This document shows, piece after piece, positions 6,574 to 42,227 of a stretch of DNA of 64,000 nucleotides. The notes beneath the pieces were generated by a model, which was not told the DNA's origin, ran no database searches, and saw nothing but the letters and a program-made list of their open reading frames with translations. The translations under genes were made by a program, and so were the position numbers. Source of the DNA: Bolinopsis microptera (taxonomy: Eukaryota; Ctenophora; Tentaculata; Lobata; Bolinopsidae); assembly GCF_026151205.1 (NCBI RefSeq), contig NC_087072.1, forward strand, positions 21,170,103-21,234,102, in the 5' to 3' direction. Each line of letters opens with the position of its first letter. Position 1 is the first letter of the stretch.

Positions 6574-8228
6574 TTGAGTCTGATGTCTCTCTCTGCGCTT
6601 GTCAGTTAGTCCTCCAGCCATTATCATTTTAACAGTTGTGGGTTTCTCTGATATTATACAAGCTGACACACTGATTTTAAACTATTGCAAAAAGTATACC
6701 GAGCAGAGAAACCGTAAACTGGCTGTAAACATTTTAAACGTTCACTTTATATAATCTGAAGCTACAAGTACAACATGTTGATTTCTTTTCAAACGTTTTA
6801 ATGACTTTTTTACCAAACTTACATCAACACTTTGCTAATTGTTTAAAGTGTGCTTTCAGCGAAAAGATTCCACTTTGGATTTGTTGGTGTGCATGCATGG
6901 AAGATGGCTTGGTAATTGAAACATGTGTCATGCTTTTTGCATACAGAGTTTTCAAAACATTGATATTATATTGGATAGTGTATAATTTTTGCTTCTACCT
7001 TAGATCTAATGTCCTTATTAATATTATATTAGATTTTCTAGTCTATAACCATTCATTTCTCGGATTGTGTTCAATTATTTCCGATGATAAAGCTGATTTT
7101 CATCTTTCAATGCTTATGGCCAACAAGGCAATCAAACTCCTCCCCCCGCCCCCCCCCCCCCCCCCCCCCCCCCCCATTTCTCCTGTTCAAAGTTTAAACA
7201 CCGCCGCAACCAAACAAATAAGCCTTTTCTAAGACGCCTGGCACATTTACGCTCAGCCTAGGGCTCTATTTCTTTTAGACGTCAAAATAAATAATTATCT
7301 GGATTAACTTACCTAATATTTTCTCGCCCTAGTAAAACAGAATATGTGATGTTTAGGCAGTATTTCATGCGAATTCCAGATTTCCGGTTTTTTTTAAAAC
7401 CTACAGACCAAATATTTAATGTTGCTGACGTGACTTCTTGGCCTATTAGGGTTTCTAGTCCTTTACCAGTCTTGCAAGGGTTTTATTTTTCATAACGCTA
7501 CTAATATTTTGGATGCAGGTGTGAGGACAACTAATGGCGATAATTTTATGTTTGGTATGGTATATGTTCCGGTATGGTTGCTGCCTTTCTAGACATATTT
7601 ATTTTCACGTATTTATTTTGACCCAAGTTGTGCACGATATTTTGATATTTCTATTTGATCGAACGTATACCTAACAACCCAAAATTTACAGATGATTTAA
7701 ACTCAATTTTAACCTTGCGCTTAGTTCTGTTTGTACAGTAAACTGTTGAAACTTAAATTAATGATCGATCATAGCCTTGACTAGTGATAGCATTACGAAA
7801 ACTAGCCGCACAGTTAAAATGTGGTAGTTTAGTAGACTGTTGTTTGTCCATTCCTAGCTTCAGGAAATACAGGAGCTCAGCATCTACTTCACTACCTATG
7901 AGTTACAAACAGCTTACAATTTTTTGGGCACATATTTTGTTTGGTATTTATGTATTTTTTTCGGTGTCTCCCGAGAAATTCTGACAAGTTAATAAAGTGG
8001 TGGATGACTGATGTAATTAAGATAATTGCAGCAAGTAATTTGACAGACCTGGTTGTGCACAAGAAGATGTATGGGCGTAACACAGATTATTAGCAGGTGT
8101 ATTGTATTGGTCAGACAAATGTGCTTTCCGGGATCAGGATGTCTTACAATGCAGTAATTCACCTCACCAGTGTGCACCATTAGCAAGCTGCAACCTTTGT
8201 GTACGTTCTCTCGGCTCACAAGCAAATC
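6574..8228. other. Intergenic between the TRP paralogues
   Basis: This should hold the 3' UTR of the first gene and the promoter of the second. No exon was supported. The longest ORF (6801-7232) owes its proline run to a poly-C tract and looks spurious. No TATA box was confidently placed upstream of 8229. Confidence 0.5.
7142..7175. repeat. Poly-C tract
   Basis: A run of 33 C interrupted by one G at 7148. The length may be inaccurate because homopolymers sequence poorly. Confidence 0.97.
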
Positions 8229-10623
8229 ATGGACACTCGACGTCGTATGTCCATGAAGAAGGTGATTCCTAGATCTATCACTAACTTTAACCAGAAGGAC
8301 CCAAGATACGCCCTCTTCGCGTACTTTCTTAAGCTAGCCAACAGGTGTGGAGCAAACAAGTTCAACAACAAGATTCTGGAGACAGACCAGGACGAGCTGT
8401 ACGCTCTGACATGCAAGATAAAACCAGAAGACATCAAGATAAAGGACTTCAACCACCAGACTATCCTCCACCTAGCTGCTCAGTACTGCCGAGGGGAGGA
8501 TATCTCAATGTTAACCGAGGTCAAGTTTAAAGGACACGTGGAGATTGACGCTGAGGATGAGCTGGGTTATACGCCCCTCATGTACGCGGCTATGGCTAAC
8601 AATGTGGACACGGCGGAGGTGTTGGTGGAGAAGGAGTGTAATCTGAACACTACTGTAGGGGAGAGTGAGAGGAGTGTTCTGCACGTGGCTGCTATGTTCG
8701 GCTGCAAGGAGATGACAAGATTCTTACTACAAAAGGTAGAATAAAAACACCTCGGTGTGCACACTGCACAGTGCACACACGCAATTTGCATTGCTTTTAA
8801 AACTTGAAATTCATAACAGACGTTTTTGAGTAATGAGTATTAACTTGATATTATTTGCCCCAGAAGTGCGATATAGACTGCCAGGACAGATTGGGACTAA
8901 CCCCAGTAGCTCTGGCGGCATACTACCGGCACTCCAACGTTACTTCCTACCTGGTGGCATTAGGAGCCAACGCTTTTGTAGTGGACAGTGCGGGTATAAG
9001 TTCCGCTATCAGGATTGCGTACAGTATGCCTGTTGTTATACGAGACGTGTTCGATAAACTCTGTACTGAGGAACTTCTCAAGGGTATCTCATAATTCTGG
9101 TTTTAACTGTACAATGATATTATCTGTTTTATCTAACTCCAATGTGAGACTTTCTCGCGACTTAATATAATATTATTTGATGATTAACAAACTTCCTTTC
9201 AGGCGAGAGGCACTACAATTTAGAGGATATACTGGCTACTGAAGCGGACATCAAGACCTCTCTATTCCAATTCCTGGTTTGGCAAGGCAATCTAGGGATC
9301 GTAGAGCACCCTGTATTTAAGCACCTAACAGAAGCCAAGTGGGTGTTGTACGGAGAGAAACCTACCAAGAAAATGTTCGGATGTCTAGCCATCGTATCCA
9401 TTATCTGGACAGTTCTGTACATGATAACAGAGACATTAACCACACAGGAGATGAGGTACATCCACTATATCCATCTAGCTGTATACGTAGCAGCGCTGGT
9501 GTGTTACTTGCTCCGTCTCAGAGTTAATACCATGCTGATGAGAAGGAGGCATACCTTCTTGATGCATATTCGTAAGGTTATGACTAATATGGACAAGAGT
9601 GAGGCCTCTATCATGCATTCCAAAGGACAACATCTGATGCGTGCGGCCAGGGAGGCAGGCACGACCGAGAAGTTGACCTTCATTAATGACATTAAAAAAG
9701 CACCCTCTTTGATTACTGATCTCATCATAGACCACATTCTTCTAATTTATCTCATAATCAAGGTGCTATCCAACTTCAATAGCGTTGTTGCTAGCATCGA
9801 GAATATTTTCGGAGCTATAGCCATCATCTGCCTCTGGACAAACACCTTTCTCAAGCTGCAGATCACCAAGAAGATCGGCCCCTTCGTTATCTTCATGAAG
9901 TACGTGCCCTCGGACATGTGGACAGTCTGCACCATGTTCATCACCCTCTTTATGCCTGCTCTCATCGTGTTCTACAAAACCATATTCACCAAGGACGGCA
10001 CTAAAGCTCCAATAGAAGAGCTGGAGGAACTAGATGGTAGGGAGAGGAGGGCCGCTGCTAAAGGGGGGAGTGGAGGAGGAGGTGATACTTTCACCGAACT
10101 GGATTTTATCGGCACTTTCTTCGCCGTACTGAGGATGGTGCTAGCTGATTACGAGTATGAAGACGGCATGTCCAGGTCAGTACCACCAGCTTGGTGGATG
10201 ATAATATCTTTGGTATGGATTGTAGTTAGCAGTATCGTGGTCCTCAACCTGATGATTGCTATCATGGCAGACAGTTATACCCGAATCTACGAGAGATCTG
10301 AGATAACGTCCCGAGTACGGAGAGCGGAGACAATAGCTGATCTGGAGAAAAGGATGGGGTCGGAGGAACTGACTCAAGCTATTGAGGATATCAAGGCGAT
10401 CTCCCCGATAAGGATATTGTTTGATCCAGTGTGTGACAGAGATAAGATGGAAATTGTGGATGCTAAAGTTAAAGTTCTTTACAAGAAGATGACCAGATTG
10501 GAGCAGACCGTTAACAACAAGCTCTTCATCAACCTCAAGCGCAGACTCGACTTTATCGAGACCAAGGTTAATATTCAGAGTTTCAAGCCGACAACAGCTG
10601 CCCCTTTCTTCAGATACAGCTAG
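8229..10623 (+). CDS. TRPA-like ankyrin-repeat cation channel, paralogue 2 (3 exons)
   Basis: Predicted exons are 8229-8735, 8864-9083 and 9203-10623 with GT..AG borders and phases 0 and 1, giving 715 aa. The ATG at 8229 is the first in frame. The protein aligns with paralogue 1 throughout. It has about four ankyrin repeats (LGYTPLMYAAMANN, SVLHVAAMFG, LGLTPVALAAYYR), then six membrane segments, KIGPFVIFMKY before S5, a pore region FFAVLRMVLADYEYED, S6 ending LNLMIAIMADSY, and a coiled-coil-like tail. The two introns match introns 2 and 3 of paralogue 1 in position and phase, and the middle exon is exactly 220 bp in both. The introns equivalent to 1 and 4 are absent. A Gly-rich S5-pore linker again holds GRERRAAAKGG. 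The filter reads ADY where paralogue 1 has GDY. Poly(A) signals follow about 90 bp after the stop. The likely role is a cation channel, possibly assembling with paralogue 1 (inference). Confidence 0.87.
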
Positions 10624-26543: not shown

Positions 26544-27929
26544 CTAATTTAATATTTGTACAGATTGGAAGTCGAAAGTAACTTTACCATCTTCTGGTTT
26601 GATTATCTTATAGTCCCCATAGTAATCATCTTCGACGAACAGTTTCCAGGATCCTATTTCCACCTGAGCCGCTTTTCCGTAGTAGCTGAATTCGAACTGA
26701 CTAAACTCTTCAGCTGAGGCGTACAAAACTCGCCTCTTCCCTTCATCGTCGTAGATAGTTACCTTGCCCTTGATGAAGCACTGAGCGGCAGTTCCCGCGT
26801 AGTTTGAATCATAACAGCAGCCTCTAGCCTGACAGACCTCCTGGTTCAGGTTGGCACTGGAATCACATGGTGTGCGCTCCGAGGGATGGGTGTCCGTACA
26901 AATCTCCCAATTCTCGTTAGGCCTCCACTCGATAGTTTTTCTGGAACTAGAGATGGAACAGAGGTTCTCCCAACCTCTGGAGAAGTAGACGTAACCACTG
27001 TAACCCCACAGACTCCCCCAACTGTTCTTCACGTACCAGTAATCTTTCTCATATCCAGCTGCCACCACGGCATGATTAGTGGTAGGGTTTGTCCCACACC
27101 CTGTCCCTCTGTAGGTGCCGGTAGTGTAGAAAGGTAAAGCCCAGGAGCTGTATATGTACACCACTACGGGTCCCTCTGTAGCTAGAGCGTGTTGTAACCC
27201 TGCATCATTCCTCGTCCTATACCGGGCAAGGTGAGCGTAGGGCTTGGCTCTGCGCAGACCATTGGAGTGAGGGGTCTTCAACTCTGTGCATTCGCGGTCA
27301 TTACCTTTGTAGGGATTATCCTTCCTAAGCGGGAGATAGCCGTAATCATTAGATTTGGATATAGGACTCTCGGATCCAGCAAAGGAAATGGCAGTGTCAC
27401 TCCATCCTCCATTACAACCATCTCTACCAATGTCTTCGAAGGTACAGTCCAGTAACGTTTGCTCGGAGAAATCCCGGAATTCCCCGTGTTCCTTTAGATG
27501 CATACCCTCTATGGCCCCAATGGCAGCAAACGCCCAACAACTTCCGCAGGCCCACTGGTTCTTTGCCGGACCCATGTCCCAATATTGCTTCTCAGGATTA
27601 GTGGGGTCTAGTGGACTCGGATCGATTTCTAAGTTCGACTCTAATGCAGTGTCGTTTTTGTTTATCCCAGTGAAGGCAGCCTTCTCCTCATCAGTCATAT
27701 CTGCAAACAGTGTGAACCCAGCCACCCAATCACTCTGGATAGAGTTTATGTATTCGATAGTCTGAGCAGACTTCTTGAACTGACGGAATCGGGCCAGTTC
27801 ATTTCTGAGTCCACCTCCGTAAATTTTGTCGAAAGTTACTTTCCAATCCTTGAAGGTTTGACGTAGATCTTGGTCTGCGGAAGCAGCCAGGACTGAAAAA
27901 CAGACTAATCCTAAAACGATGAATCTCAT
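26544..27929 (-). CDS. Secreted papain-like cysteine protease with trefoil and beta/gamma-crystallin-like domains (copy 1)
   Basis: A single-exon 461-aa ORF. Domains in order: signal peptide (1-18), I29 inhibitor propeptide (about 22-90), peptidase C1A (about 112-335), P-type trefoil (about 344-385) and a beta/gamma-crystallin-like domain (about 388-461). The catalytic triad is intact: Cys131 in CGSCWAFA, His286 in NHAVVAAGY, Asn302 in KNSWGSLWGY; the oxyanion Gln is Gln125. The usual Gly after that Gln is Trp (NQWACGSCW). The trefoil shows CQARGCCYD and a closing CF. The C-terminal motif GSWKLFVEDDYYGDYKIIKP resembles the crystallin Greek-key signature (G.W.LY....Y.G....L.PG). The protein is expected to be secreted or lysosomal, with the extra domains possibly anchoring it to mucus or glycans (inference). 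It is the first of five related copies. Its upstream 540 bp is duplicated with copy 2. Confidence 0.92.
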   Translation of the reverse strand: MRFIVLGLVCFSVLAASADQDLRQTFKDWKVTFDKIYGGGLRNELARFRQFKKSAQTIEYINSIQSDWVAGFTLFADMTDEEKAAFTGINKNDTALESNLEIDPSPLDPTNPEKQYWDMGPAKNQWACGSCWAFAAIGAIEGMHLKEHGEFRDFSEQTLLDCTFEDIGRDGCNGGWSDTAISFAGSESPISKSNDYGYLPLRKDNPYKGNDRECTELKTPHSNGLRRAKPYAHLARYRTRNDAGLQHALATEGPVVVYIYSSWALPFYTTGTYRGTGCGTNPTTNHAVVAAGYEKDYWYVKNSWGSLWGYSGYVYFSRGWENLCSISSSRKTIEWRPNENWEICTDTHPSERTPCDSSANLNQEVCQARGCCYDSNYAGTAAQCFIKGKVTIYDDEGKRRVLYASAEEFSQFEFSYYGKAAQVEIGSWKLFVEDDYYGDYKIIKPEDGKVTFDFQSVQILN

Positions 27930-28474
27930 AACAGAGCGATTTGTAGTTGACCGAAAATAAAAATAAAATCTCCTGAACTGTTTAAATCTGACAGAATTGA
28001 GACAGAATTGAATTAAGGGACTTAAAGTTGTGAACTTTGAAATAACCTAATAAAACACCAGGGGGCCAGGTTAGCTGAGGAGAAAACTGAAGTCTCACCT
28101 GGTAACGTAACAGACTAATTGATGTTAAACAGATTTAAAAACTGTATGAAATAAGTAAGAATGTCCCAATTAAAAGATTAAACCAGACTTCACTGCAAAG
28201 TAAGCTTACTAACCAACTAATTTTACTATTATGCTGATACTGTACGCGATAAACATGATACAGCTAACGATTAAAACCTTTTGAAGCTGTACAGTATGTG
28301 ATTGTTGTCGGTTAGGGATCGGGTTAGAGTTGGAGGTTTTGGTTTGTTTGTCAAGTTAGTCACGTGATAACGACCGTACAGTGATTAATCGCTTTTCTCC
28401 AACAAGGTGGGCTACCTTTCAAATTTCTCTTACAAAGATGAAAGAAGTTACAATGAACGACTGCATTGAAAAAA
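27930..28474 (-). repeat. Duplicated upstream block of minus-strand protease copy 1
   Basis: This 0.54-kb stretch before the ATG matches 32169-32506 plus 33318-33588 at very high similarity, up to GACTGCATT at 28466. It probably carries the promoter. No TATAAA is at the position used by the plus-strand copies; the nearest AT run is the TTTTATTTTTATTTT about 30 bp upstream of the ATG. Confidence 0.9.
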
Positions 28475-30326
28475 AAATTTTCATTGTAAGGCTTGTGAGA
28501 GAGATTGGCCGATAATTTTCAACTAAAGTTTTGGGGCCTTTCTTATGCACAGGTACTACGATAGCAAATTTCCATTCAGATGGTATCTGACCTATATTAT
28601 AAGAGATTTTAAAAAGGCTCGAGAGTGGGTATGCAATACTATCTCTACAGTTCTTTAAAATTTTGCCATGGATACCATCTGGACAAGCAGCTTTATTAAC
28701 ATTGACATCTTTTAGAATTTTTCGGATTCTACTGGTACTGAACTCAATGTCGTTTACTGAGTCATTACTATAATCAATATCAACATCATAGTTACTCGCT
28801 TCGGAAAACTGTGCGGCAAAATATTCATTGAACATTTCAGCTTGGTCTAAGTGATTGTTTCTGAATCTGCCGTTATAATTTACTGTTCCCGGTATGCGAG
28901 TAGATTTTGATGTCGATTTGACATGTTTCCAGAATTTCTTTGACATAAGAGCTGGATCATCATCATCATTCAAATTTGATATCATTTTTTGGTCGACCAA
29001 ATTTTGAAAATCTTTTCTACATTGTGAGAACTTTTCATAGTCCTCGGCTAGGCATGATCTTTTCGATTTGACTCGTAGTTTTTCTTTTTTGAGACACAGC
29101 TGATAAGTGTCAGAGTCAAACCAGGGCGGCTGATCCTTATCTGATATCGTAATAGTTGGGATTCGGTTGTGTATGTGATGGAACAGGATTTTCTTAAAAC
29201 GGAACCATCCTGTTTCTGCATCACAGTTAAGGTGATCATCCCATCTAACTGATTTCAGATCATTGTTCAGGCCGATCCAGTCTGCTTTTTTGTAATTTAA
29301 GATTTTTCGTTTGATGACCTTCTTTCTAAACTTCATTTTAGCACTAAAAGTTATTCCAAAGTGATCTGAGGAGCATATCTCATTTTTCCCCAGGACTACC
29401 AAATTTTCAACAACACTTATCATATTACAGAAGAGAAGATCGAGGACCTTCCCTTTATCATGAGTGGGTTGGTTTATCATTTGTGTTAAGCCTAGGTCAT
29501 TAAACAGATCTATAAAACGGCCACCAAGAAGTGTGGGGGACACACCGTCTGACCAGTTAACTTCAGGTAGATTGAAGTCCCCAACTACAAAGTGGGCCTT
29601 AAACTTTCTTCGGCTTACCACATTTCTGAGGTGTTTCTCAATTTCATTAAAATTATTTTCACCAAGGGTGCCAACTCTATAGCAGGCAGTTATGCAGTAG
29701 CATGTGTTGTTTGATTTTAGGCTGACTGAGATCATTTCAGCCCTAGAGCTGACATCAATCTTGTCATTTTCAATACTGATGCCAGTCTTGACTGCAATAA
29801 GGACTCCACCCCCCTTCCTTCGAAACTTATTTGGGTTATCAGGATCCGGGGGGTGGGATCTTTTGGATCTATCCTTCCGATATATCTTGTAGATGCTATC
29901 AGGGAGGATCTCATTTTCCAGGTGCTCTTTTGAAAGCCAAGTCTCAGTCAGAACAATAACATCAGGCTTGTCTTCATAGATCTTAGATTGGAGCTCTAGT
30001 AGTTTACCAGCATCAAGCGGCATGTTTTTAGATGCTAGGCCACTAAAGGGGACAAGCCCTCTCAAATTTTGGTACATTACCTTTAGATGACTGAGGTTAT
30101 TGTTATCAACTGGACCTGGGTTAAGTATGCTTGTATTGCAGATAACAAGCAAAACTAAGTTCAGAATGGTCGTCCAGATGGTGAACATGTTACTTAGGAA
30201 CTGATGTCCACTACACTTAGCGGAAGAGTAACGTCTGGGACAACCATACTTCACTATCCATAGGGCTATTCCATTTTGTTTCTTTGAATAGATGATCATT
30301 AGGACTACAAGATTTGCACTGTTCAT
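28471..30326 (-). mobile_element. Truncated LINE: AP endonuclease plus start of reverse transcriptase
   Basis: A 635-codon minus-strand ORF. The endonuclease domain shows NLRG near the start, LTETWL, GGGVLIAV, GDFNLPEVNW and SSDHFGI, the order seen in APE-type non-LTR elements (CR1/L2/jockey-like). It continues into the reverse transcriptase fingers region (ACPDGIHGKILK, IPSEWKFAIVVPVHKKG, NYRPISLTS) and then stops abruptly at a run of T on the coding strand. From there the frame runs into the duplicated protease-upstream DNA, so the palm with its catalytic Asp pair is missing. The 3' loss is unusual because LINEs are usually 5'-truncated. It cannot encode an active element. Confidence 0.9.
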
Positions 30327-30874
30327 AAGTCAGTCCCAGTCATTGGTCAGGTGTAGTCCGATCTTGTACGAGCGATGCATACGAAATGTTTATTCTGAGT
30401 ATTCACTTGCTGTTTCAATGGCCCCCGCCAATAACAGACAGATCATATACACATATACAACAATCACTACTCCATAAATCATCTTTAAAATAGCACTTTT
30501 CTCTATAGTGGTAATTGAATCTATATTTAATTTAGCATTGCATTTGACTTTGGGAGAGTATAGACCAATCACTGTTCTGTGTTGTAAAAATGTGACTCCC
30601 ATAAATTAGTTTAAAACTCAAAGTTAGATGGAAACTGGAAAATATGTACTGATTATACTCTGTTAAAGAAGCAAGAAGTTAATGAATTAAAATATTGTCA
30701 ATTAATAAATATGGGAACAAATATGAGAGCATTGTTAAGCTATAATTCTCGTTAAAAAATGAAAGAATTCTCTGAATTTTATAAGTTGAACATGTTACAA
30801 GATGACTACCTAGGTTGGTTAGCAACGCCAATAAGATCTTTGGCTAACACACTGGTTCCAACAGGATTAATATT
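30327..30874. other. Spacer between the LINE fragment and pseudogene copy 2
   Basis: AT-rich with no recognisable gene. It may include the 5' part of the LINE, but no further domain is readable. No homology was seen to the sequence downstream of copy 1. Confidence 0.4.
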
Positions 30875-32168
30875 CTAATTTAATATTTGTACAGATTGGA
30901 AGTCGAAAGTAACTTTACCATCTTCTGGTTTGATTATCTTATAGTCCCCATAGTAATCATCTTCGACGAACAGTTTCCAGGATCCTATTTCCACCTGAGC
31001 CGCTTTTCCGTAGTAGCTGAATTCGAACTGACTAAACTCTTCAGCTGAGGCGTACAAAACTCGCCTCTTCCCTTCATCGTCGTAAATAGTTACCTTGCCC
31101 TTGATGAAGCACTGAGCGGCAGTTCCCGCGTAGTTGGAATCATAACAGCAGCCTCTAGCCTGACAGACCTCCTGGTTCAGGTTGGCACTGGAGTCACATG
31201 GTGTCCGCTCCGAGGGATGGGTGTCTGTACAAATCTTCCATTCATTGTTAGCCCTCCACTCGATAGTTTTTCTGGAACTAGAGATGGAACAGAGGTTCTC
31301 CCAACCTCTGGAGAAGTAGACGTAACCACTGTAACCCCACAGACTCCCCCAACTGTTCTTCACGTACCAGTAATCTTTCTCATATCCAGCTGCCACCACT
31401 GCGTGGTTGTATTGGGGGTTTGTCCCACACCCTGTCCCTCTGTAGGTGCCGGTAGTATAGAAAGGAAGAGCCCAGGAGCTGTATATGTACACCACTACGG
31501 GTCCCTCTGTAGCTAGAGCGTGTTGTAACCCTGCATCATTCCTTGTCCCATACCGGGCAAGGTGAGCGTAGGGCTTGGCTCTGCGCAGACCATTGGAGTG
31601 AGGGGTCTTCAACTCTGTGCATTCGCGGTCATTACCTTTGTAGGGATTATCCTTCCTAAGCGGGAGATAGCCGTAATCATTAGATTTGGATATAGGACTC
31701 TCGGATCCAGCGAAGGAAATTCCCGTGCTCCTTCAGGTGCATACCCTCTATGGCCCCAACAGCAGCAAAAGCCCAACAACTTCCGCAAAACCATTGATTC
31801 TTGACAGGACCCATGTCCCAATATTGCTTTTCGGGATCGGTGGGGTCCAGTGGATTCTGACCGTATTCTACGCTCGGCTCTGATGCGGTGTCGTTCAACT
31901 TCAGCCCGGTGAAGGCAGCCTTCTCCTCATCAGTCATATCTGCAAACAGTGTGAACCCAGCCACCCAATCACTCTGGATAGAGTTTATGTATTCGATAGT
32001 CTGAGCAGACTTCTTGAACTGACGGAATCGGGCCAGTTCATTTCTGAGTCCACCTCCGTAATTCTTGTTGAAAGTTACTTTCCAATCCTTAAAGGTTTGA
32101 CGTAGATCTTGGTCTGCGGTAGCAGCCAGGACTGCAAAACAAACTAATCCTAAAATGATGAATCTCAT
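30875..32168 (-). pseudogene. Cysteine protease copy 2, disrupted by an internal 92-bp deletion
   Basis: Very similar to copy 1 from signal peptide to C-terminus, but 92 bp shorter. Relative to copy 1, the segment just after KEHG is missing: the stretch holding SEQTLLDC and GCNGGW up to ISFAG. The deletion shifts the frame and creates a stop at 31680-31682, about 32 residues after the catalytic Cys. The downstream part (30875 to about 31700) remains open and contains His, Asn, trefoil and crystallin-like regions in another frame. The rest has few changes, so the loss is recent. Its upstream block is duplicated with copy 1 and split by a hAT-like element. Confidence 0.9.
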
Positions 32169-33588
32169 AACAGAGCGATTTGTGAATGAAGTTGATCTGA
32201 AATAAAAATAAAATCTTGTGAACTGTTCAAGTCTGACAGAATTGTGACAGAATTGAATTAAGGGACTTAAAGTTGTGAACTTTGAAATAACCTAATAAAA
32301 CACCAGGGGCCAGGTCAGCTGAGGAGATAACTGAACTCTGAAGTCTCACCTGGTAACGTAACAGACTAATTGATGAGAAATAGATTAAAACCGTTGTAAG
32401 ATAGTAAGTTGTAACATTTATTGTCAAAGATCTGTAAATAACCTTGTCTAAATCAAAAATAAGTAAGAATGAGCCAATTAAAAGATTATACCCGACTTCA
32501 CTGCAACAGGCTTGTCCGCCGTGGCTAAATGGATCGGCGGCGGCGTTTCACTAAAATTACACCGGCGGCGGCGGCGTACGCCGGCGTGAGCCGTGAAATC
32601 AAGGCCAACAAAATTGAGGTCTATGAAATATGAATATGATCATGTACTTAATTTGGGTAATTTAGACTTAACTTCAACAAATGATGTTGGTATATTGTTA
32701 TGGTATTATCTGCTATCAAATAAAAGTTGAAACAAATTGATACAATTATTTTATTTAAGGTAAAATACATAAACAATAAATTATTGCTGAAATCAATGGA
32801 TCTCTCAATATTTTTTGTTGGAAACAAAATCATAGTTTTTAGAACAAAACAGTGTATATTTGAAATTCTTAACATTCATCCTAGATCGCTAACTAGAAAG
32901 AATTAAACCTGCAGCCGACCAGGTTCTTTCAATTTCCGCACTACTGGCAGGTATACAATGCACTATTCTTACTATGTTTGAGAGTATTGGGAAAGTTTTT
33001 TGCCTATCGGCCCAAAATCTTAAAAGTTCGAATTGTAAAATTTCTTCTTCAGTCAAACTTATAAGTAGGTATCTGCTCAGTTCTTCTGATAATCAATATT
33101 GTTAAGTTAGCTAAAGGTGTGTATCATGTGTGTGTTGCCCCTAGCCGCTAATCGCTATCAGTAACACTGATATCTTCAAATGAAGACAGAATTATTTTGA
33201 AGTCAGAAAATGCACGCCGTACGCCGATGTACGCCGGGGTGTATCGGCGGCGTTCGGCGTGGCAAAATCACCCGGCGGCGGCGGCGTTCGGCGGCGGCGG
33301 ACAAGCCTGCACTGCAAAGTAAGCCTACTAACCAACTAATTTTACTATTATGCTGATACTGTACGCGATAAACATGATACAGCTAACGATTAAAACCTTT
33401 TGAAGCTTTGCAGTATGTGATTTTTGTCGGTTAGGGATCGGGTTAGAGTTGGAGGTTTTGGTTTGTTTGTCAAGTTAGTCACGTGATAACGACCATACAG
33501 TGATTAATCGCTTTTCTCCAACAAGGTGGGCTACCTTTCAAATTCCTTTTACAAAGATGAAAGAAGTTACAATGAGCGACTGCATTTA
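32169..33588 (-). repeat. Duplicated upstream block of copy 2, split by a transposon
   Basis: Homologous to 27930-28474; homology runs 32169-32506, is interrupted by 32507-33309, then continues to GACTGCATTT at about 33588. It marks the extent of the duplication that created copies 1 and 2. Confidence 0.9.
32499..33317. mobile_element. 803-bp hAT-like non-autonomous element with CGG-rich subterminal regions
   Basis: Element 32507-33309 has perfect 15-bp inverted ends CAGGCTTGTCCGCCG and an exact 8-bp target duplication CACTGCAA (32499-32506, 33310-33317). The empty site is preserved in the copy 1 block (CACTGCAAAGTAAGC near 28192), which directly confirms the insertion. Inside both ends are arrays of CGGCGG and TACGCCG; the middle is AT-rich with no transposase. 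The 8-bp duplication fits hAT. Confidence 0.95.
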
Positions 33589-33943
33589 AAATGAGATTAT
33601 CGATAATATTACGAAACCATTTCACCGTGATGATTTCTTCTCCAGTACGCGTTTGTTTCGGAATTTCGCTCAGCTGAAACTTTCGGTAATATAATCAGAC
33701 TTTCATATTATGTACAAGTATCTTTGATTTCCGTGGTAGGCTGGTGCAGATGCAAGAACTCAAACAAGAAGAATTGGGTCTTATTACTGCACTCTGCTAT
33801 AAGGTGATCAGCGTGTTTAAATTTAGCTTAACATTCCTGCTTCTTCACTCCCTGTTTCCTGCCACCAGCCACTAATATAGCCACATCGCTAGTATTTATG
33901 AAAATTTGCCTGTCTTAACACGACATACCTGCCGTAAACCAGA

Positions 33944-34090
33944 CAGTTTTATCGACATACCTGGCGTATTAACGAAAGTTAACTGTCGTATTTACAACAG
34001 AACAACAGTAATTGTGGCATGCGTTTACCATTTCGATGTGCTGCGCAGTGAAATGTCTTGAATACGACAGGTATGCTAACAAAACTGCAT
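33944..34090. repeat. Imperfect inverted repeat with GACATACCTG words
   Basis: CAGTTTTATCGACATACCTG on the left is mirrored by CAGGTATGCTAACAAAACTG on the right (16 of 20 positions pair), with extra TACGACA words nearby. It is probably a decayed palindromic element. Confidence 0.45.
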
Positions 34091-35574
34091 CGTAGGTACG
34101 AGGACTAATTTACGACTTAAGTATGTCGCGTTACGACAATTATATTTACCGTTGAACGAGGGTGTTCAAGGAGCAGTAACAGTTGCTGATAGTGATAATA
34201 TTTCGTTAAGCTTGAGAAAATAGCTGGTGCAGAGACTGAGAAGGGACTATAAGCAGAGGAGAGAACATGGCACTAGCAGAGAAGAGACAAGCAGACCATA
34301 TTATGTGGTCTCCCTGGTGTTATTTACAAGGTACGTTCAAGCTTCTTTGATAGCTGAGAGCTGTTCTGGTCAGAAAGGAAGTTTGTATGATTTTTTCATC
34401 TAGAGTAATTTAAGTCGGGGTAAAGGAGACTACGTTTGAGATCAGGGCGCAACTTTCCAAAAGGGTGTTCATCGTCAACATACAAGAGTTACCATGTGTT
34501 AAACAAGTCTGCAGCCCTTGCGTAGGAATAAAATTTTAACAACAAAATAAACGAAGGATTTTATGAGTTCATAATATAACGCATGGAGCGTTTTAGAAAA
34601 AAAAGCGATCAGATCAACCAATTAATTCGATTCAATCTACAAAAATGGTAATCTTAGTGCCATGTGATTTAGCTGCGTTGTTCACCCTTTTTGAAAAGTT
34701 CCACCGTAGCGTTGTCCTCTGTACCGTCCTCCGCCGCAGTGCTCAGTTCCGTGTGGTTGTTGTCAGTGGTTATTATCCGTGATTATGTAACAGTGACACA
34801 ATACCTGTCACGTGATGTGACTTTATTGTGGTCTCGTAGTTACGGAACCATGCACGTGCAAGGTAAGCGGTGAGTCATGATCTTTTGTTAAGTTTTGTTA
34901 AGAGAATCAACATATATTTTTATTATTTCCTTAGTAATTTGTATCAGTTACTTTTGATGTGTTTCCCGAGGGACGAAACTTTATGCAAGCTTAAAGTACT
35001 AGCAGGCATATTGCTCAAATTAGCTCCGCTCACTAGTTAAAGTTTGATTGAACCAATTTTTAAGAGTTCTAAGTAAAGTCATCAGATACAAATATCCGTC
35101 TGTATTAATAAGAAGATGCCATTATCATTATTGTTGGTAACGTAGGAGTTACTTGGACACGGTCGGTCTTATCTGATTCTGCACCTTAACCTTCATCCAT
35201 TGAAGCTCGGTGGTTGTAGAATGAAGATGGAAGATGGCCCACAGAGCCGCAAGAGAGTGAGCTAATTTCTCGAAGAATTTGAGTTTATTTAGTTATCATG
35301 ATGCCACTGATGTCTTTCTTCGATAAAATATTTACATTAACCCGGGAGGATGACGAAGTGGTGCTATAAATCTTCAGTACACGTCAATTTCAACTTGTTA
35401 TGATAACATTAATGTTTGAAATTTCCAGCCTTCGACGCGACATTCAGATCTTGTGTAACTGTCATGATACGTCAAACTCTTCCTCGGTCCGTGTCTTATC
35501 TTAAAGTGGTTCATAACTATCTTGTAATACTAATATAGAAACCCTTAGTCCTAAATATGCCCTACTACCTTATC

Positions 35575-35945
35575 GGTCATAATTTTCACGGACATTTATA
35601 CTTTCACGCTAAAGACCTTAGCGTGAATAATTAAGTCAGTGAAAATAATGTCTGTGGCATTCATTTCTGTGAATAATAAAGTCCGGTAATTATTTCCATT
35701 AATTTTAGTGTGTGTGTCCCTACATAGTACATATGCTTAGATATGTGTAGCCATTTACTATATTAGTTTATTAGTATACTAGGACAAATGTAATCACTCC
35801 TCAGTCACATTCTATAGTTCAGAAAAAGATTAAAACACTTATTAAAGTGTTTGGGCGGTCATGTCGAGCGCAGCGTGAATAATTATGTCCGTGAAAAATG
35901 TGGTCCATGAAAAACTTGTCCGTGACAATTATGTCCGATGACTTG
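35575..35945. repeat. Repeats of ATTATGTCCGTGAAAA, partly inverted
   Basis: ATAATTTTCACGGACAT near 35579 is the inverse of ATTATGTCCGTGAAAAATG near 35882. Further diverged direct copies (AATTATGTCCGATG, AATAATGTCTGTGG) lie between and after. It looks like a decayed foldback or satellite-type element. Confidence 0.55.
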
Positions 35946-36381
35946 ACTTCCGTCGAAGATCCAGGTTCATAGTCTCGTACCAATTCCGTAAACAAATAAT
36001 AAATCAAGCACGTTTACACTTATGGTGATTTATCATTTAATTTTATGTACGGACCATAGCTGAAACACTTGTGCTTTCAAAACTACAAGTAAATATTACC
36101 ATTCGAATTCTCAGCACGTTTTCAGCTTCGGGCTATGAATAATTGTGTAGTGTGTTCAGTTTAAAGTATAACGATATATGCTATAGTGCTAATAATTCAA
36201 TATTTAGCACTTTTAATCCATTTGTCATCAATTTTCTCACTTTAAACTTCCACCTGAAGCTTCTTAATTTGATTTTTAATTAATTTTAGTGCTGTACGTT
36301 CAATCGAATTATTTAACGCGCCATGAATCAAATGCAAGCCTTATTTAATGTAGAACAAGAAGTAAGCATTTTATTTACACG

Positions 36382-37767
36382 ATGAGGTTTTATGTAGTTC
36401 TAGGACTGGTCTGTCTTGCAGCCCTGACTGCGAATGCAGACAAAGATTTACGTCAAGTCTTCAAGGATTGGAAAGTTCAGTTCAGCAAGAATTACGGAGG
36501 TGGACTCAGAAATGAACTGGCCCGATTCCGTCAGTTCAAAAAGTCTGCTCAGACTATCGAATACATAAACTCTATCCAGAGTGATTGGGTGGCTGGGTTC
36601 ACACTGTTTGCAGATATGACTGATGAGGAGAAGGCTGCCTTCACCGGGCTGAAGTTGAACGACACCGCATCAGAGCCGAGCGTAGAATACGGTCCGAGTC
36701 CACTGGACCCCACCGATCCTGAAAAACAATATTGGGACATGGGTCCTGTCAAGAATCAAGGGTCTTGCGGAAGTTGTTGGGCTTTTGCTGGTGTTGGGGC
36801 CATGGAGGGTATGCACCTGAAAGAGCACGGAGAATTCAGGGATTTTTCCGTGCAAACGATACTGGACTGTGCTTTTGAAGGGTACAGAGACGGCTGCAAA
36901 GGAGGATGGAGTGAGTCAGCCATCAGATGGGCTGGGAGTGACAGCAGGATATCTAACTCTGAAGATTACGGTTATCTTCCTCTCCAACAGGACAACAAAT
37001 ACAAAGGCAGAGATGGAGAGTGCACAGACCTGAAGAAACCCTACAATAACGCACTTCGACGTGCAAAGCCGTACGCGTATACTGCTGAGATCCCGTCCAG
37101 AACCGATGCTGGGTTGCAACATGCTCTGGCTACACAAGGTCCTATCATTGTAAGTATTTACAGTTCCTGGGCTCTACCTTTCTACACTACCGGCACCTAC
37201 AAAGGAACAGGGTGCGGGGAGAACCCTACTCCCAATCATGCAGTGGTGGTCGCTGGATATGAGAAGGATTACTGGTACGTGAAGAACAGTTGGGGAAGTT
37301 GGGGTTACAGCGGATACGCTTACTTCTCCAGAGGTTGGGAGAACCTCTGCTCCATTTCTAGCAGAAGGAAGATACTCGAGTGGAGGCCTAACGAGAATTG
37401 GAAGATTTGTACAGACACCCATCCCTCGGAGCGGACACCATGTGACTCCAGTGCCAACCTGAACCAGGAGGTCTGTCAGGCTAGAGGCTGCTGTTATGAT
37501 TCCAACTACGCGGGAACTGCCGCTCAGTGCTTCATCAAGGGCAAGGTAACTATTTACGACGGTGAAGGGAAGAGGCGAGTTTTGTACGCCTCAGCTGAAG
37601 AGTTTAGTCAGTTCGAATTCAGCTACTACGGAAAAGCGGCTCAGGTGGAAATAGGATCCTGGAAACTGTTCGTCGAAGATGATTACTATGGGGACTATAA
37701 GATAATCAAACCAGAAGATGGTAAAGTTACTTTTGACTTCCAATCTGTACAAATATTGAATAACTAA
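36382..37767 (+). CDS. Secreted papain-like cysteine protease with trefoil and crystallin-like domains (copy 3)
   Basis: A 461-aa single-exon ORF of the same architecture as copy 1. It is the only copy with the canonical NQGSCGSCWAF active-site motif; the others have Trp for the Gly. The triad Cys, His (NHAVVVAGY) and Asn (KNSWGSWGY) is present. Like the other plus-strand copies it lacks one residue in the NSWGxxWG loop. SVQTILDC replaces the usual SEQTLLDC, and the disulphide region reads DGCKGGW. The start is the ATG giving MRFYVVLGLVCLAALTA, a good signal peptide. Unlike copies 4 and 5 it lacks a TATAAA at -37, although the 200 bp upstream is otherwise related. AATAAA follows at 37813. Confidence 0.92.
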   Translation: MRFYVVLGLVCLAALTANADKDLRQVFKDWKVQFSKNYGGGLRNELARFRQFKKSAQTIEYINSIQSDWVAGFTLFADMTDEEKAAFTGLKLNDTASEPSVEYGPSPLDPTDPEKQYWDMGPVKNQGSCGSCWAFAGVGAMEGMHLKEHGEFRDFSVQTILDCAFEGYRDGCKGGWSESAIRWAGSDSRISNSEDYGYLPLQQDNKYKGRDGECTDLKKPYNNALRRAKPYAYTAEIPSRTDAGLQHALATQGPIIVSIYSSWALPFYTTGTYKGTGCGENPTPNHAVVVAGYEKDYWYVKNSWGSWGYSGYAYFSRGWENLCSISSRRKILEWRPNENWKICTDTHPSERTPCDSSANLNQEVCQARGCCYDSNYAGTAAQCFIKGKVTIYDGEGKRRVLYASAEEFSQFEFSYYGKAAQVEIGSWKLFVEDDYYGDYKIIKPEDGKVTFDFQSVQILNN

Positions 37768-37812
37768 TATTGAATAACTAATAAAATATTGAATAACTAA
37801 TAAAATACAGAG

Positions 37813-37818
37813 AATAAA
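37813..37818 (+). promoter_or_regulatory. Polyadenylation signal of protease copy 3
   Basis: AATAAA 46 bp after the stop. Between them lie three short copies of TTGAATAACTAAT, a small slippage expansion of the end of the ORF. Confidence 0.65.
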
Positions 37819-37884
37819 GAAAGTTGTTTCATTGCGATATAATTTTATCATTTTTCAATTTGTCTGAAAGGTTTACATAAACAC

Positions 37885-38293
37885 CCAATGGTCCGGCATC
37901 TGAAGCTCTTATAATATGATGGGCAATCATTTGTACATATATGTCCGGATAATGACCCAAAAAACAATTGTGCTTTTTAGAACTCCAAGGATTCATTTGT
38001 ATTCCATTTATGATTATCTACGGCCAACGTCTTCAGGTGGCAGATAATAGGAAAGATTTTAGTATTAACTTTAAGTATAGAGACTTCAAACAATTCAAAA
38101 TTTAGCACCCTCAATTCATTTACCATCAATTTTCTCGGTTTGCACATCCACTCAATTTGATTTCTTAATCCAATTGAGCGACGATTTGTTCTACGTTCAA
38201 TGCAATTGGATTATTTTACGCCCACAAATCAAATTCGACACTGTAGATATACTTGATATAAAACAAGACAGAATTCTTTATTTCATTTACACG
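37885..38293 (+). repeat. Duplicated upstream block of protease copy 4
   Basis: Shares CCGGCATCTGAAGCTCTTAT, GTGCTTTTTAGAACTCCAAG and the last 200 bp (ATCAATTTTCTCGG, CAATTGAGCGACG) with 40325-40841 upstream of copy 5. Parts also match the region before copy 3. Confidence 0.85.
38257..38262 (+). promoter_or_regulatory. TATA box of protease copy 4
   Basis: TATAAA in GATATAAAACAAG, 37 bp before the ATG. The identical context and spacing upstream of copy 5 suggests a functional core promoter with a very short 5' UTR. Confidence 0.6.
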
Positions 38294-39676
38294 ATGAGAT
38301 TTATAGTTCTAGGACTGGTCTGTCTTGCAGCACTGACTGCGAATGCAGACAAAGATTTACGTCAAGTCTTCAAGGATTGGAAAGTAGAGTTCAACAGGAA
38401 TTACGGAGGTGGACTCAGAAATGAACTGGCCCGATTCCGCCAGTTCAAGAAGTCTGCTCAGACTATCGAATACATAAACTCTATCCAGAGTGATTGGGTG
38501 GCTGGGTTCACACTGTTTGCAGATATGACTGATGAGGAGAAGGCTGCCTTCACCGGGCTGAAGTCCAACGACACCGCATTAGAGTCGAACTTAGGAGTGG
38601 GGCCGAGTCCACTGGACCCTACCGATCCCGAGAAGCAATATTGGGATATGGGTCCGACAAAGAACCAGTGGTCCTGCGGAAGTTGTTGGGCTTTTGCAGC
38701 TGTTGGAGCCATGGAAGGTATGCATTTAAAGGAACACGGAGAATTCAGGGACTTTTCCGAACAAACGCTACTGGACTGTACTTTCGAAGGGAGAAGGGAC
38801 GGCTGCAAGGGAGGATGGAGTGAGTCAGCTATCAGATGGGCCGGGAGTGACAGCAAGATCTCTCACTCACAATTCTACGGTTACCTACCAATCCGAAAGG
38901 ACAACAAATACAGAGGCGATGATAAAGAGTGCGTAGACCTAAAGAAACCATACAACAATGCATTAAGAAGAGCAAAACCGTACGCTTATCTAGCCCAGTA
39001 CAAATCTAGGAACGATGCCGGACTACAGCACGCTCTAGCTACAGAGGGACCCGTAGTGGTGTACATATACAGCTCCTGGGCTTTACCTTTCTATACTACC
39101 GGCACCTACAGAGGGGACGGGTGTGGGACAAACCCTACTCCCAATCATGCAGTGGTGGCAGCTGGATATGAGAAAGATTACTGGTACGTGAAGAACAGTT
39201 GGGGGAGTTGGGGTTACAGCGGATACGCTTACTTCTCCAGAGGTTGGGAGAACCTCTGTTCCATCTCTAGTTCCAGAAAAACTATCGAGTGGAGGCCTAA
39301 CAATGAATGGAAGATCTGTACAGACACTCATCCCTCGGAGCGCACACCATGTGACTCCAGTGCTAACCTAAACCAGGAGGTCTGTCAGGCTAGAGGCTGC
39401 TGTTATGATTCCAACTACGCGGGAACTGCCGCTCAGTGCTTCATCAAGGGCAAGGTAACTATTTACGACGAAGAAGAGAAAAGGCGGGTTTTGTACGCCT
39501 CAGCTGAAGAGTTTAGTCAGTTCGAATTCAGCTATTACGGAAAAGCAGCTCAAGTGGAAATAGGATCCTGGAAACTGTTCGTCGAAGATGATTACTATGG
39601 GGACTATAAGATAATCAAACCAGAAGATGGTAAAGTTACTTTTGACTTCCAATCTGTACAAATATTGAGTAACTAA
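38294..39676 (+). CDS. Secreted papain-like cysteine protease with trefoil and crystallin-like domains (copy 4)
   Basis: A 460-aa single-exon ORF. The start was set at the ATG giving MRFIVLGLVCLAALTANA, matching the paralogues; the 40 codons open upstream lie in promoter DNA. It has signal peptide, I29 domain, C1A peptidase with NQWSCGSCWAF, NHAVVAAGY and KNSWGSWGY, trefoil with GCCYD, and a crystallin-like tail ending VQILSN. The middle of the peptidase domain (about residues 155-240) differs from other copies at many sites, while both ends are nearly identical at the DNA level. AATAAA follows at 39689. It is predicted to be a secreted or lysosomal digestive or defence protease. Confidence 0.92.
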   Translation: MRFIVLGLVCLAALTANADKDLRQVFKDWKVEFNRNYGGGLRNELARFRQFKKSAQTIEYINSIQSDWVAGFTLFADMTDEEKAAFTGLKSNDTALESNLGVGPSPLDPTDPEKQYWDMGPTKNQWSCGSCWAFAAVGAMEGMHLKEHGEFRDFSEQTLLDCTFEGRRDGCKGGWSESAIRWAGSDSKISHSQFYGYLPIRKDNKYRGDDKECVDLKKPYNNALRRAKPYAYLAQYKSRNDAGLQHALATEGPVVVYIYSSWALPFYTTGTYRGDGCGTNPTPNHAVVAAGYEKDYWYVKNSWGSWGYSGYAYFSRGWENLCSISSSRKTIEWRPNNEWKICTDTHPSERTPCDSSANLNQEVCQARGCCYDSNYAGTAAQCFIKGKVTIYDEEEKRRVLYASAEEFSQFEFSYYGKAAQVEIGSWKLFVEDDYYGDYKIIKPEDGKVTFDFQSVQILSN

Positions 39677-39688
39677 GAAAATTCAGAG

Positions 39689-39694
39689 AATAAA
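39689..39694 (+). promoter_or_regulatory. Polyadenylation signal of protease copy 4
   Basis: AATAAA 13 bp after the stop codon. Confidence 0.55.
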
Positions 39695-39810
39695 AACTTT
39701 GTTTCATTGCGATACTGTTTTCACTTGTCATTTTGTCTTAAAAGACATACACGAACATCCCATGAACTATAAATTACGAGCAATTCCATTAAGGAGCATC
39801 TTAGGCATAA

Positions 39811-39888
39811 GATTGATTGATTTGTCAAATATTTGCTCATGATGAGTAAATATTTATTGTTGATGAGTAAATATTGGACAAATCAATC
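39811..39888. repeat. Hairpin with 26-bp arms
   Basis: GATTGATTTGTCAAATATTT at the left pairs with AAATATTGGACAAATCAATC at the right, with an internal duplicate of ATGAGTAAATATT. Probably a palindromic MITE remnant. Confidence 0.88.
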
Positions 39889-40324
39889 AATTTTAAAATT
39901 TCCGGAAGTTTGGTGGTCTGATATTTATCTGGTTTGGACTCCGTAGTTAGCTCATGGCTGGTATTGTTACGTTTTACTAGTGTAAGTGATTACTAAAATG
40001 ATACAAATATTCAAAGGCTATGATGTAATAAAAAAGAACCTTGATGAAGTCTCTAAATTTAATAGGTATTAACCGATGGTAAACCTACAATGTTCCAATT
40101 ATGATTTTGTCGTCATATTATGTGCAGAAAATTGCTAAAAATTTGGACAAAGTTTACAACTTTCAGAGTTTCATACGGAATCGAGCATTACTACTCAACT
40201 AGACCTAACGTCAACGAACATGAACTCTGAAGATATTTTGCATGGAAATGCGAGGCGCGAGCAAACCTCTGCTTTTAGAAGCAGACTTTCGGCCAATGTC
40301 AATAGGTCAAAAACATAAAACGAA

Positions 40325-40841
40325 TGGACGGGACCGGCATCTCAAGCTCTTATAATATGATGGGCCGTTACAATGCGTTACAAGTGTTACAAGCCTTCTA
40401 TAATACAAAATTTGCATCACATCTTCAACCTGCTGAATGGAGGCGCCACTTAAAACGTAAACAAACAATTATCACCTCCCCGCCAGTATCCACATCTATA
40501 TTATTTATGTCCGGATCATGACCTACAAAAGAATTGTGCTTTTTAGAACTCCAAGGATTCGTTTTTCAAAGCCTTCAGGTGGCAGATAATGGGGAGACTT
40601 CAGTATTAAGTATGGAGATTTACAAGTTCAAACAATTCAAAATGTATCCCCTCAATTCATTTATCACCAATTTTCTCGGTTTACACAGCCACTAAATTTG
40701 ATTCCTTAATCCAATTGAGCGACGCTTTTTTAGTGATCTACGTTCAAATTCAATTTAATCATTTTGCGACCATAAATCAAATTTGACACTAAAGATTTAC
40801 TTTATATAAAACAAGACAGAATTCTTTATTTCATTTACACG
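40325..40841 (+). repeat. Duplicated upstream block of protease copy 5
   Basis: Homologous to 37885-38293 but with about 130 extra bases at 40364-40500 of unknown origin. It carries the shared promoter region of the plus-strand copies. Confidence 0.8.
40805..40810 (+). promoter_or_regulatory. TATA box of protease copy 5
   Basis: TATAAA within TTTATATAAAACAAG, exactly 37 bp upstream of the ATG, as for copy 4. Confidence 0.65.
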
Positions 40842-42227
40842 ATGAGGTTTTATATAGTTCTAGAACTAGTCTGTCTTGCAGCACTGACTGCGAAAGCAGA
40901 CAAAGATTTACGTCAAGTCTTCAAGGATTGGAAAGTTCAGTTCAACAAGAATTACGGAGGTGGACTCAGAAATGAACTGGCCCGATTCCGTCAGTTCAAG
41001 AAGTCTGCTCAGACTATCGAATACATAAACTCTATCCAGAGTGATTGGGTGGCTGGGTTCACACTGTTTGCAGATATGACTGATGAGGAGAAGGCTGCCT
41101 TCACCGGGCTGAAGCTTAACGACACTGCATTAGAGTCGAACTTAGAAATCGATCCGAGTCCACTGGACCCCACCGATCCTGAGAAGCAATACTGGGACAT
41201 GGGTCCTGTCAAGAACCAATGGTCCTGCGGAAGCTGTTGGGCTTTTGCTGCTGTTGGGGCCATGGAGGGTAGGCATCTAAAGGAACACGGAGAATTCAGG
41301 GACTTCTCGGAACAGACGTTACTGGACTGTACCTTCGAAGGAAGACGTGACGGCTGCACGGGAGGTTGGAGTGAGCTAGCCATCAATTGGGCTGGTACTG
41401 ACAGCAAGATCTCTCATTCGAAATTGTATGGCTACCTACCAATCCGAAAGGACAACAAATACAGATGGAGTGATGGAGAGTGCACAGACCTGAAGAAACC
41501 CTACAACAACGCATTGAGAAGAGCTAAACCGTTGGCATATCTTGCTAGTTACCGCTCCAGGAACGATGCTGGGCTACAGCATGCTCTAGCTACAGAAGGA
41601 CCCGTGGAAGTGGACATTTACAGTTCCTGGGCATTACCTTTCTACACTACCGGCACCTACAGAGGCGACGGGTGTGGGACGAACCCAACTCCCAATCACG
41701 CAGTGGTGGTCGCCGGATATGAGAAGGATTACTGGTACGTGAAGAACAGTTGGGGAAGTTGGGGTTACAGCGGATACGCTTACTTCTCCAGAGGTTGGGA
41801 GAACCTATGCTCTATTTCTGCCCGAAGAAAAACTATCGAGTGGTGGCCTAGCAGTGAATGGAAAATTTGCACGGACACCCACCCCTCGGAGCGCACACCA
41901 TGTGATTCCAGTGCCAACCTGAACCAGGAGGTCTGTCAGGCTAGAGGCTGCTGTTATGATTCCAACTACGCGGGAACTGCCGCTCAGTGCTTCATCAAGG
42001 GCAAGGTAACTATCTACGACGATGAAGGGAAGAGGCGAGTTTTGTACGCCTCAGCTGAAGAGTTTAGTCAGTTCGAATTCAGCTACTACGGAAAAGCGGC
42101 TCAGGTGGAAATAGGATCCTGGAAACTGTTCGTCGAAGATGATTACTATGGGGACTATAAGATAATCAAACCAGAAGATGGTAAAGTTACTTTCGACTTC
42201 CAATCTGTACAAATATTGAATAATTAA
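40842..42227 (+). CDS. Secreted papain-like cysteine protease with trefoil and crystallin-like domains (copy 5)
   Basis: A 461-aa single-exon ORF with signal peptide MRFYIVLELVCLAALTAKA, I29 domain, peptidase with NQWSCGSCWAF, NHAVVVAGY and KNSWGSWGY, trefoil and crystallin-like tail ending VQILNN. Copy-specific changes cluster in the peptidase: DGCTGGWSELAI, VEVDIYSSW, SARRKTIEWWPSSEW. The acidic substitution in VEVDIYSSW lies in a region that in papain-like enzymes lines the cleft, so specificity may differ (inference). It is the last copy of the cluster. The DNA downstream is unrelated to the other copies and shows no nearby AATAAA. Confidence 0.92.
   Translation: MRFYIVLELVCLAALTAKADKDLRQVFKDWKVQFNKNYGGGLRNELARFRQFKKSAQTIEYINSIQSDWVAGFTLFADMTDEEKAAFTGLKLNDTALESNLEIDPSPLDPTDPEKQYWDMGPVKNQWSCGSCWAFAAVGAMEGRHLKEHGEFRDFSEQTLLDCTFEGRRDGCTGGWSELAINWAGTDSKISHSKLYGYLPIRKDNKYRWSDGECTDLKKPYNNALRRAKPLAYLASYRSRNDAGLQHALATEGPVEVDIYSSWALPFYTTGTYRGDGCGTNPTPNHAVVVAGYEKDYWYVKNSWGSWGYSGYAYFSRGWENLCSISARRKTIEWWPSSEWKICTDTHPSERTPCDSSANLNQEVCQARGCCYDSNYAGTAAQCFIKGKVTIYDDEGKRRVLYASAEEFSQFEFSYYGKAAQVEIGSWKLFVEDDYYGDYKIIKPEDGKVTFDFQSVQILNN

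Follow-up and report, generated by a model that had tools for sequence, protein, structure and literature searches.

A 64,000-nucleotide stretch of the genome of the ctenophore Bolinopsis microptera (contig C1, NC_087072.1, positions 21170103 to 21234102 of the forward strand; hereafter the window) carries an array of papain-like cysteine protease genes whose products extend beyond the peptidase into a trefoil domain and a crystallin-like tail. Four copies (A, C, D and E) are intact and free of internal stops, and one (B) is broken into two pieces (Table 1). All four intact copies display the same architecture, namely a signal-peptide-like start, an I29 propeptide, a papain peptidase with its full catalytic set, a trefoil domain and a tail of 74 to 75 residues. 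This domain order had been proposed by a first-pass annotation from the letters of the DNA alone and was confirmed across the array. The combination of papain, trefoil and crystallin was not found in print among the listings returned by full-text searches of the open-licence literature; the architecture is real and uncommon, and joins an apparently new combination of tail modules to a known protease family. In the list of open reading frames, copy D begins at an upstream TTG, and the analyses used the start at 38291, which adds one codon.

Table 1. Coordinates of the array genes, their domains and related features. Positions are those of the window unless a region (L) is named.
Feature	Position	Strand	Remarks
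Copy A	26547..27929	-	intact uninterrupted frame, 461 codons/amino acids
Copy A, domains (residues)			signal-peptide-like ~1-19 (by eye); I29 26-82; Peptidase_C1 119-329; trefoil 344-385; crystallin-like 388-461
Copy A, catalytic residues			Cys131, His286, Asn302, within Peptidase_C1
Copy A, crystallin-like tail	26547..26768	-	74 amino acids; sequence matches and homology to paralogues
Copy A, trefoil region	26769..26912	-	residues 340-387; Pfam and alignment
Copy B, broken	30878..32168	-	two pieces (32168-31716, 31726-30878); stretch between pieces, present in other copies, missing
Copy C	36382..37764	+	intact, 461 amino acids
Copy D	38294..39673	+	intact, 460 amino acids from the ATG aligning with the other copies
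Copy E	40842..42224	+	intact, 461 amino acids
Retrotransposon-type endonuclease frame between A and B	28422..30329	-	reverse transcriptase start by eye only
Papain-trefoil-crystallin paralogue, C1:5.3 Mb	L018:1467-3157	+	I29, peptidase, trefoil, Crystall, same order as window copies
Two-crystallin frame, C7:3477 kb	L017:472-1791	-	440 amino acids; Crystall 2.5e-18; Inhibitor_I36 3.4e-10 (2 stretches)

The protease part of these proteins is readily recognized. Both Peptidase_C1 (E 5e-47 to 2e-43) and I29 (E 5e-8 to 5e-7) are found by Pfam above their curated cut-offs in the four intact copies. The signal-peptide-like start is a reading by eye. The catalytic set of Gln, Cys, His and Asn is complete in all four, in the motifs QxxCGSCWAF (oxyanion Gln and Cys), NHAV and KNSWG, and the propeptide of copy A carries an ERFNIN-like motif. 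I29, the ERFNIN-like motif and this catalytic set are shared with the cathepsin L-like enzymes of peptidase family C1A, and the best PDB matches of a window protein include digestive cathepsin L, papain and procathepsins. The window copies differ from these enzymes by the C-terminal addition of a trefoil and a crystallin-like domain, outside the region aligned to the PDB relatives. In papain numbering, Cys 128/172, 162/214 and 278/324 of copy A can be assigned to the three disulfide pairs known from papain; the S2 positions 67 and 68 are occupied by a constant Trp and Ser, and position 205 by Ser in copies A and D and by Arg in C and E. Silicateins, in which Ser replaces the catalytic Cys, are distinguished from the window copies, all four of which keep it. 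Plant RD21-type enzymes likewise join a small disulfide-rich C-terminal module to a papain-like enzyme, but in that plant lineage the module is a granulin instead of a trefoil followed by a crystallin.

The trefoil domain (PF00088) was detected in each intact copy at 1.9e-7, with 31 bits for a cut-off of 21. The six-cysteine spacing of P-type trefoils is found at residues 344-384 of copy A and the trefoil cysteines are invariant across five aligned rows. The first-pass annotation had gone further and inferred a mucus- or surface-targeted protease. According to the cited portion of a study of trefoil factor (TFF) lectins, the side chains of TFF3 that contact the mucin disaccharide GlcNAc-alpha-1,4-Gal are Asp20 and Trp47 (PMC7221086). 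The aligned positions are occupied by Pro and Gln in the four intact copies, which in this respect differ from TFF1-3, where Asn/Asp and Trp make the contact. Because both sugar-contact residues are replaced, the trefoil as read from its sequence gives the proposed mucus targeting no support.

The tail itself was compared with known structures. When the 74 residues of copy A were searched against the PDB with phmmer, 24 matches were obtained at E <= 10, of which 23 were gamma-crystallins, the best being gamma-D crystallin at 4.4e-4; the reversed tail, used as a control, gave no match at E <= 10. A profile made from five near-identical tails was weaker (best match 0.072; 17 of 37 matches were crystallins). 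Local alignment to the first domain of the best crystallin scored 71, against 21.8 +- 3.8 for shuffled sequences (0/3000 as high), and alignment to its second domain scored 44 (3/3000 as high), statistics that are not free of choice since the target was itself the best PDB match. Vertebrate gamma-crystallins, which among solved structures lie nearest to the tail in sequence, are lens proteins made of two domains with four Greek keys, whereas the window tail consists of one domain with one canonical signature. That signature, which takes the form (Y/F)xxxx(F/Y)xG in the cited part of PMC8639718, is represented in copy A by FVEDDYYG (residues 431-438) in the second half of the tail only, the second expected occurrence not being found. 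It is weak when considered alone, being present in 844 of 5000 shuffled tails. The calcium motif of microbial-type crystallins given in the same source, N/D-N/D-X-X-S/T-S (PMC8639718), occurs in 0/4 intact window copies.

The affiliation of the tail is decided by its paralogues elsewhere in the genome. A genome search with the trefoil and tail recovered related sequences at C5:15.0 Mb (39% identity, E 3.3e-22) and at C1:5.3 Mb (33% identity, E 2.6e-6). Against the Pfam family Crystall (PF00030; cut-off 25 bits), the C1:5.3 Mb tail clears the cut-off with 37.6 bits (E 2.4e-9), and the C5:15.0 Mb tail stays below it with 19.2 bits (E 0.0014). When a profile of five tails (three from the window, C5 and C1:5.3 Mb) was set against three genomic crystallin domains, the probability was 88% and the E value, which applies to this one comparison, was 2.9e-6 over 51 columns, although the C1:5.3 Mb gene stood on both sides and the comparison is therefore not independent. 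Because these paralogous tails match Crystall, we regard the homology of the window tail to crystallins as settled at the level of sequence.

The array belongs to a much larger family. The searched genome comprises 264.65 Mb in 232 contigs, and copy A retrieved 92 scored papain-like matches at E <= 0.001 from 180 first candidates, a number that includes pieces of one gene, likely duplicates and the six matches of the window's own copies; many of them span the peptidase in one open frame. Twenty regions were sampled around matches elsewhere in the genome that scored better or ran longer, and 24 frames were obtained from 18 of them; L019 (C5:15.0 Mb) and L020 (C3:15.52 Mb) are broken and yielded none, and L029 and L030 are identical over the peptidase. 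Among the resulting 28 proteins, four of them from the window, Pfam at E <= 0.05 recognized Peptidase_C1 in 28, I29 in 24, ShK in 14, Trefoil in 5 (the window copies and the C1:5.3 Mb paralogue) and Crystall in 1. As these counts indicate, the papain core bears several kinds of C-terminal tail in this genome. ShK was present in 14 of the 23 sampled relatives devoid of trefoil. Such ShK-tailed proteases (L021, L023 and others) share with the window copies a signal-like start, I29 and a papain core in one open frame, and differ in carrying ShK and, in many cases, a short Cys-rich end in place of the trefoil-crystallin pair. This Cys-rich module, C-x-x-GT-x-(K/R)C-x-DG-(V/I)C-(R/K)H-x-HMC, ends papain-like frames (not every one) in L021-L025, L027-L030, L033 and L036, mostly after ShK-like cysteines, and no match to a Pfam family was observed for it. 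Another papain-like frame, at C3:16.3 Mb (L037:1126-2868, minus strand), has a 250-residue tail that looks C-type-lectin-like plus sushi by eye, with no such Pfam match at E <= 0.1.

Searched across the genome, Trefoil gave 14 matches at E <= 1, of which 13 exceed the cut-off and 8 fall at papain places. Crystall gave 57 matches at E <= 1, 45 of them over the cut-off, and by coordinates only the one at C1:5.3 Mb coincides with any of the 92 papain matches. The 118-residue trefoil-crystallin stretch had nine genome matches at E <= 10: five in the window, three adjoining papain sequence elsewhere and one, at E 0.14, in a two-crystallin gene. Papain sequence precedes the trefoil-crystallin tail at all four places where this tail occurs, which are C1:5.3 Mb, C5:15.0 Mb, C3:15.52 Mb (there in pieces) and the array in the window. 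The C1:5.3 Mb frame is followed, in a different reading frame, by another crystallin-like stretch, which at 23.8 bits (E 4.8e-5) narrowly misses the cut-off. The C-terminal half of the two-crystallin frame at C7:3477 kb has no Pfam match at E <= 0.05 and by eye looks like BmALP1 and similar aerolysin-type proteins; paired crystallin matches are also present in other frames of the genome, 430-452 amino acids long.

Comparison of the four intact copies reveals genes of mosaic character. At four-fold degenerate sites, differences were counted in 14 of 171 pairwise comparisons for the propeptide (residues 20-100) and in 25 of 255 for the trefoil-crystallin part (340-461); for the core (160-260) the figure is 98 of 191. 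A propeptide stretch of 60 columns is identical in all five copies, and three blocks of the core drop to 50-63% identity between A and D. Shared runs as long as the longest observed arose in none of 2000 shuffles for the pairs A-D and C-E, in 2 for A-E, 40 for D-E, 77 for A-C and 240 for C-D. Over part of its length, the propeptide of the broken copy B is closer to that of C than to that of its neighbour A. The gene ends have been homogenized and the catalytic core is old, a pattern best explained, from these comparisons, by gene conversion of the ends.

We propose, with a probability of about 0.6, that the array encodes a tandem family of secreted, probably digestive cathepsin L-like proteases equipped with an accessory trefoil-crystallin pair at the C-terminus. 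The protease would be made as a zymogen whose papain-like active site stays blocked as long as the I29 propeptide is present, and the freed enzyme, which we infer to be active, would cleave proteins either extracellularly or within a digestive vacuole. The trefoil and the single beta-gamma-crystallin domain would form a compact, probably protease-resistant pair that may stabilize the enzyme or hold it on a partner or a surface; TFF-like lectin activity towards mucin would not be expected of the trefoil. The window family would represent one branch of a large papain-like family with differing C-terminal tails, and a large family with tandem arrays would fit digestion in a carnivore.

Several observations weigh against this proposal. 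The window's own tails score below the PF00030 cut-off of 25 bits when searched alone: 13.5 bits (E 0.079) for copy A, 13.2 for C, 13.6 for E and no match for D, so that two of the three tails beyond that of A match at E <= 10; the Pfam scan of the full-length window proteins returned no crystallin row. Fold predictions were of low confidence, with a mean predicted local distance difference test score (pLDDT) of 29.9 and 51.3. The crystallin-like tail of the earlier annotation is upheld by its gamma-crystallin matches and paralogues; of the tests which that annotation had named, the tail's own Pfam score fell short and the fold predictions were uninformative. The near-invariance of the tail is largely the work of gene conversion; because conversion of the ends explains the pattern, uniformity is weak evidence of selective constraint. 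In the C1:5.3 Mb paralogue, the catalytic Cys is replaced by Ser (CGGGSW), the frame stops inside the first crystallin domain and the trefoil reaches 17.3 bits in the single-protein scan, short of the cut-off of 21, as against 21 bits when the genome was searched. As the C3:15.52 Mb and C5:15.0 Mb copies contain stops or breaks, intact catalytic versions with a trefoil-crystallin tail were seen only in the window, in its four unbroken copies. Lastly, a secreted protease could serve in defence or development equally well. The first-pass reading of the domains is supported, and its mucus targeting is not supported.

It could be argued that the trefoil-crystallin pair is an adhesin docking the protease on mucus, prey or microbes, in a defensive or prey-capturing secretion comparable to the frog beta-gamma-CAT complex (BmALP1 and BmTFF3). 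The precedent had been invoked by the first-pass annotation and agrees with the cited part of PMC2262142, where secreted crystallin and trefoil proteins act together. The genome of B. microptera moreover holds many crystallin genes, as counted above, one of which encodes two crystallin domains followed by an additional C-terminal half. The frog complex has features of its own, however: two crystallin domains are fused to an aerolysin pore-forming domain, the trefoil factor is a separate protein and no protease is known to belong to the complex. No pore-forming family appears among the Pfam rows of the window proteins, an aerolysin-type domain being absent at E <= 10 from the four intact ones, and the Pro and Gln at the glycan-contact positions, the only sugar-binding site examined, speak against lectin-like docking. 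We consider the adhesin unlikely. Still harder to credit is a tail that would be a passive leftover, an in-frame fusion deprived of a function of its own and persisting because gene conversion homogenizes the array. The four-fold differences (25/255 in the tail against 98/191 in the core) mean that sameness of the tail is no proof of selection, and the other three tail-bearing places are all damaged or altered; against this, trefoil cysteines and crystallin profile matches survive in the diverged tails of C5:15.0 Mb (39% identity) and C1:5.3 Mb (33%), which suggests long constraint. The least probable of these alternatives, to which we give very little weight, would have the crystallin-fold tail regulate proteolysis, either in cis or by acting on other proteases, much as the crystallin-fold peptidase inhibitors of family I36 do. 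The two-crystallin protein of the same genome does match Inhibitor_I36 (Table 1), but the window proteins and tails gave no I36 row at E <= 10, and I36 members inhibit metalloproteases and are not known to inhibit papain-like enzymes.

Returning to a family of probably digestive proteases with an accessory C-terminal pair, a broader and more tentative extension can be sketched. The expanded papain-like family may serve as a platform exchanging C-terminal targeting modules, ShK, trefoil-crystallin and others. In the window array, gene conversion would keep propeptide and tail uniform and leave the core old and divergent, down to the Ser/Arg switch at the base of the S2 pocket; a single delivery system could then carry several protease specificities. 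Trefoil and crystallin modules would be borne by digestive-type proteases in a ctenophore, from a group that may be sister to all other animals according to the cited part of PMC10232365. Such natural chimaeras of protease and tail could allow a direct test of what crystallin domains are for when they occur beyond the lens.

Elsewhere in the window, two adjacent sets of frames on the plus strand (2859-6444 and 8184-10620) combine ankyrin repeats with Ion_trans and look TRP-like by eye. Their Ion_trans scores are 24.8 and 29 bits for a cut-off of 25 and, unlike the uninterrupted protease genes, they are apparently split by introns.

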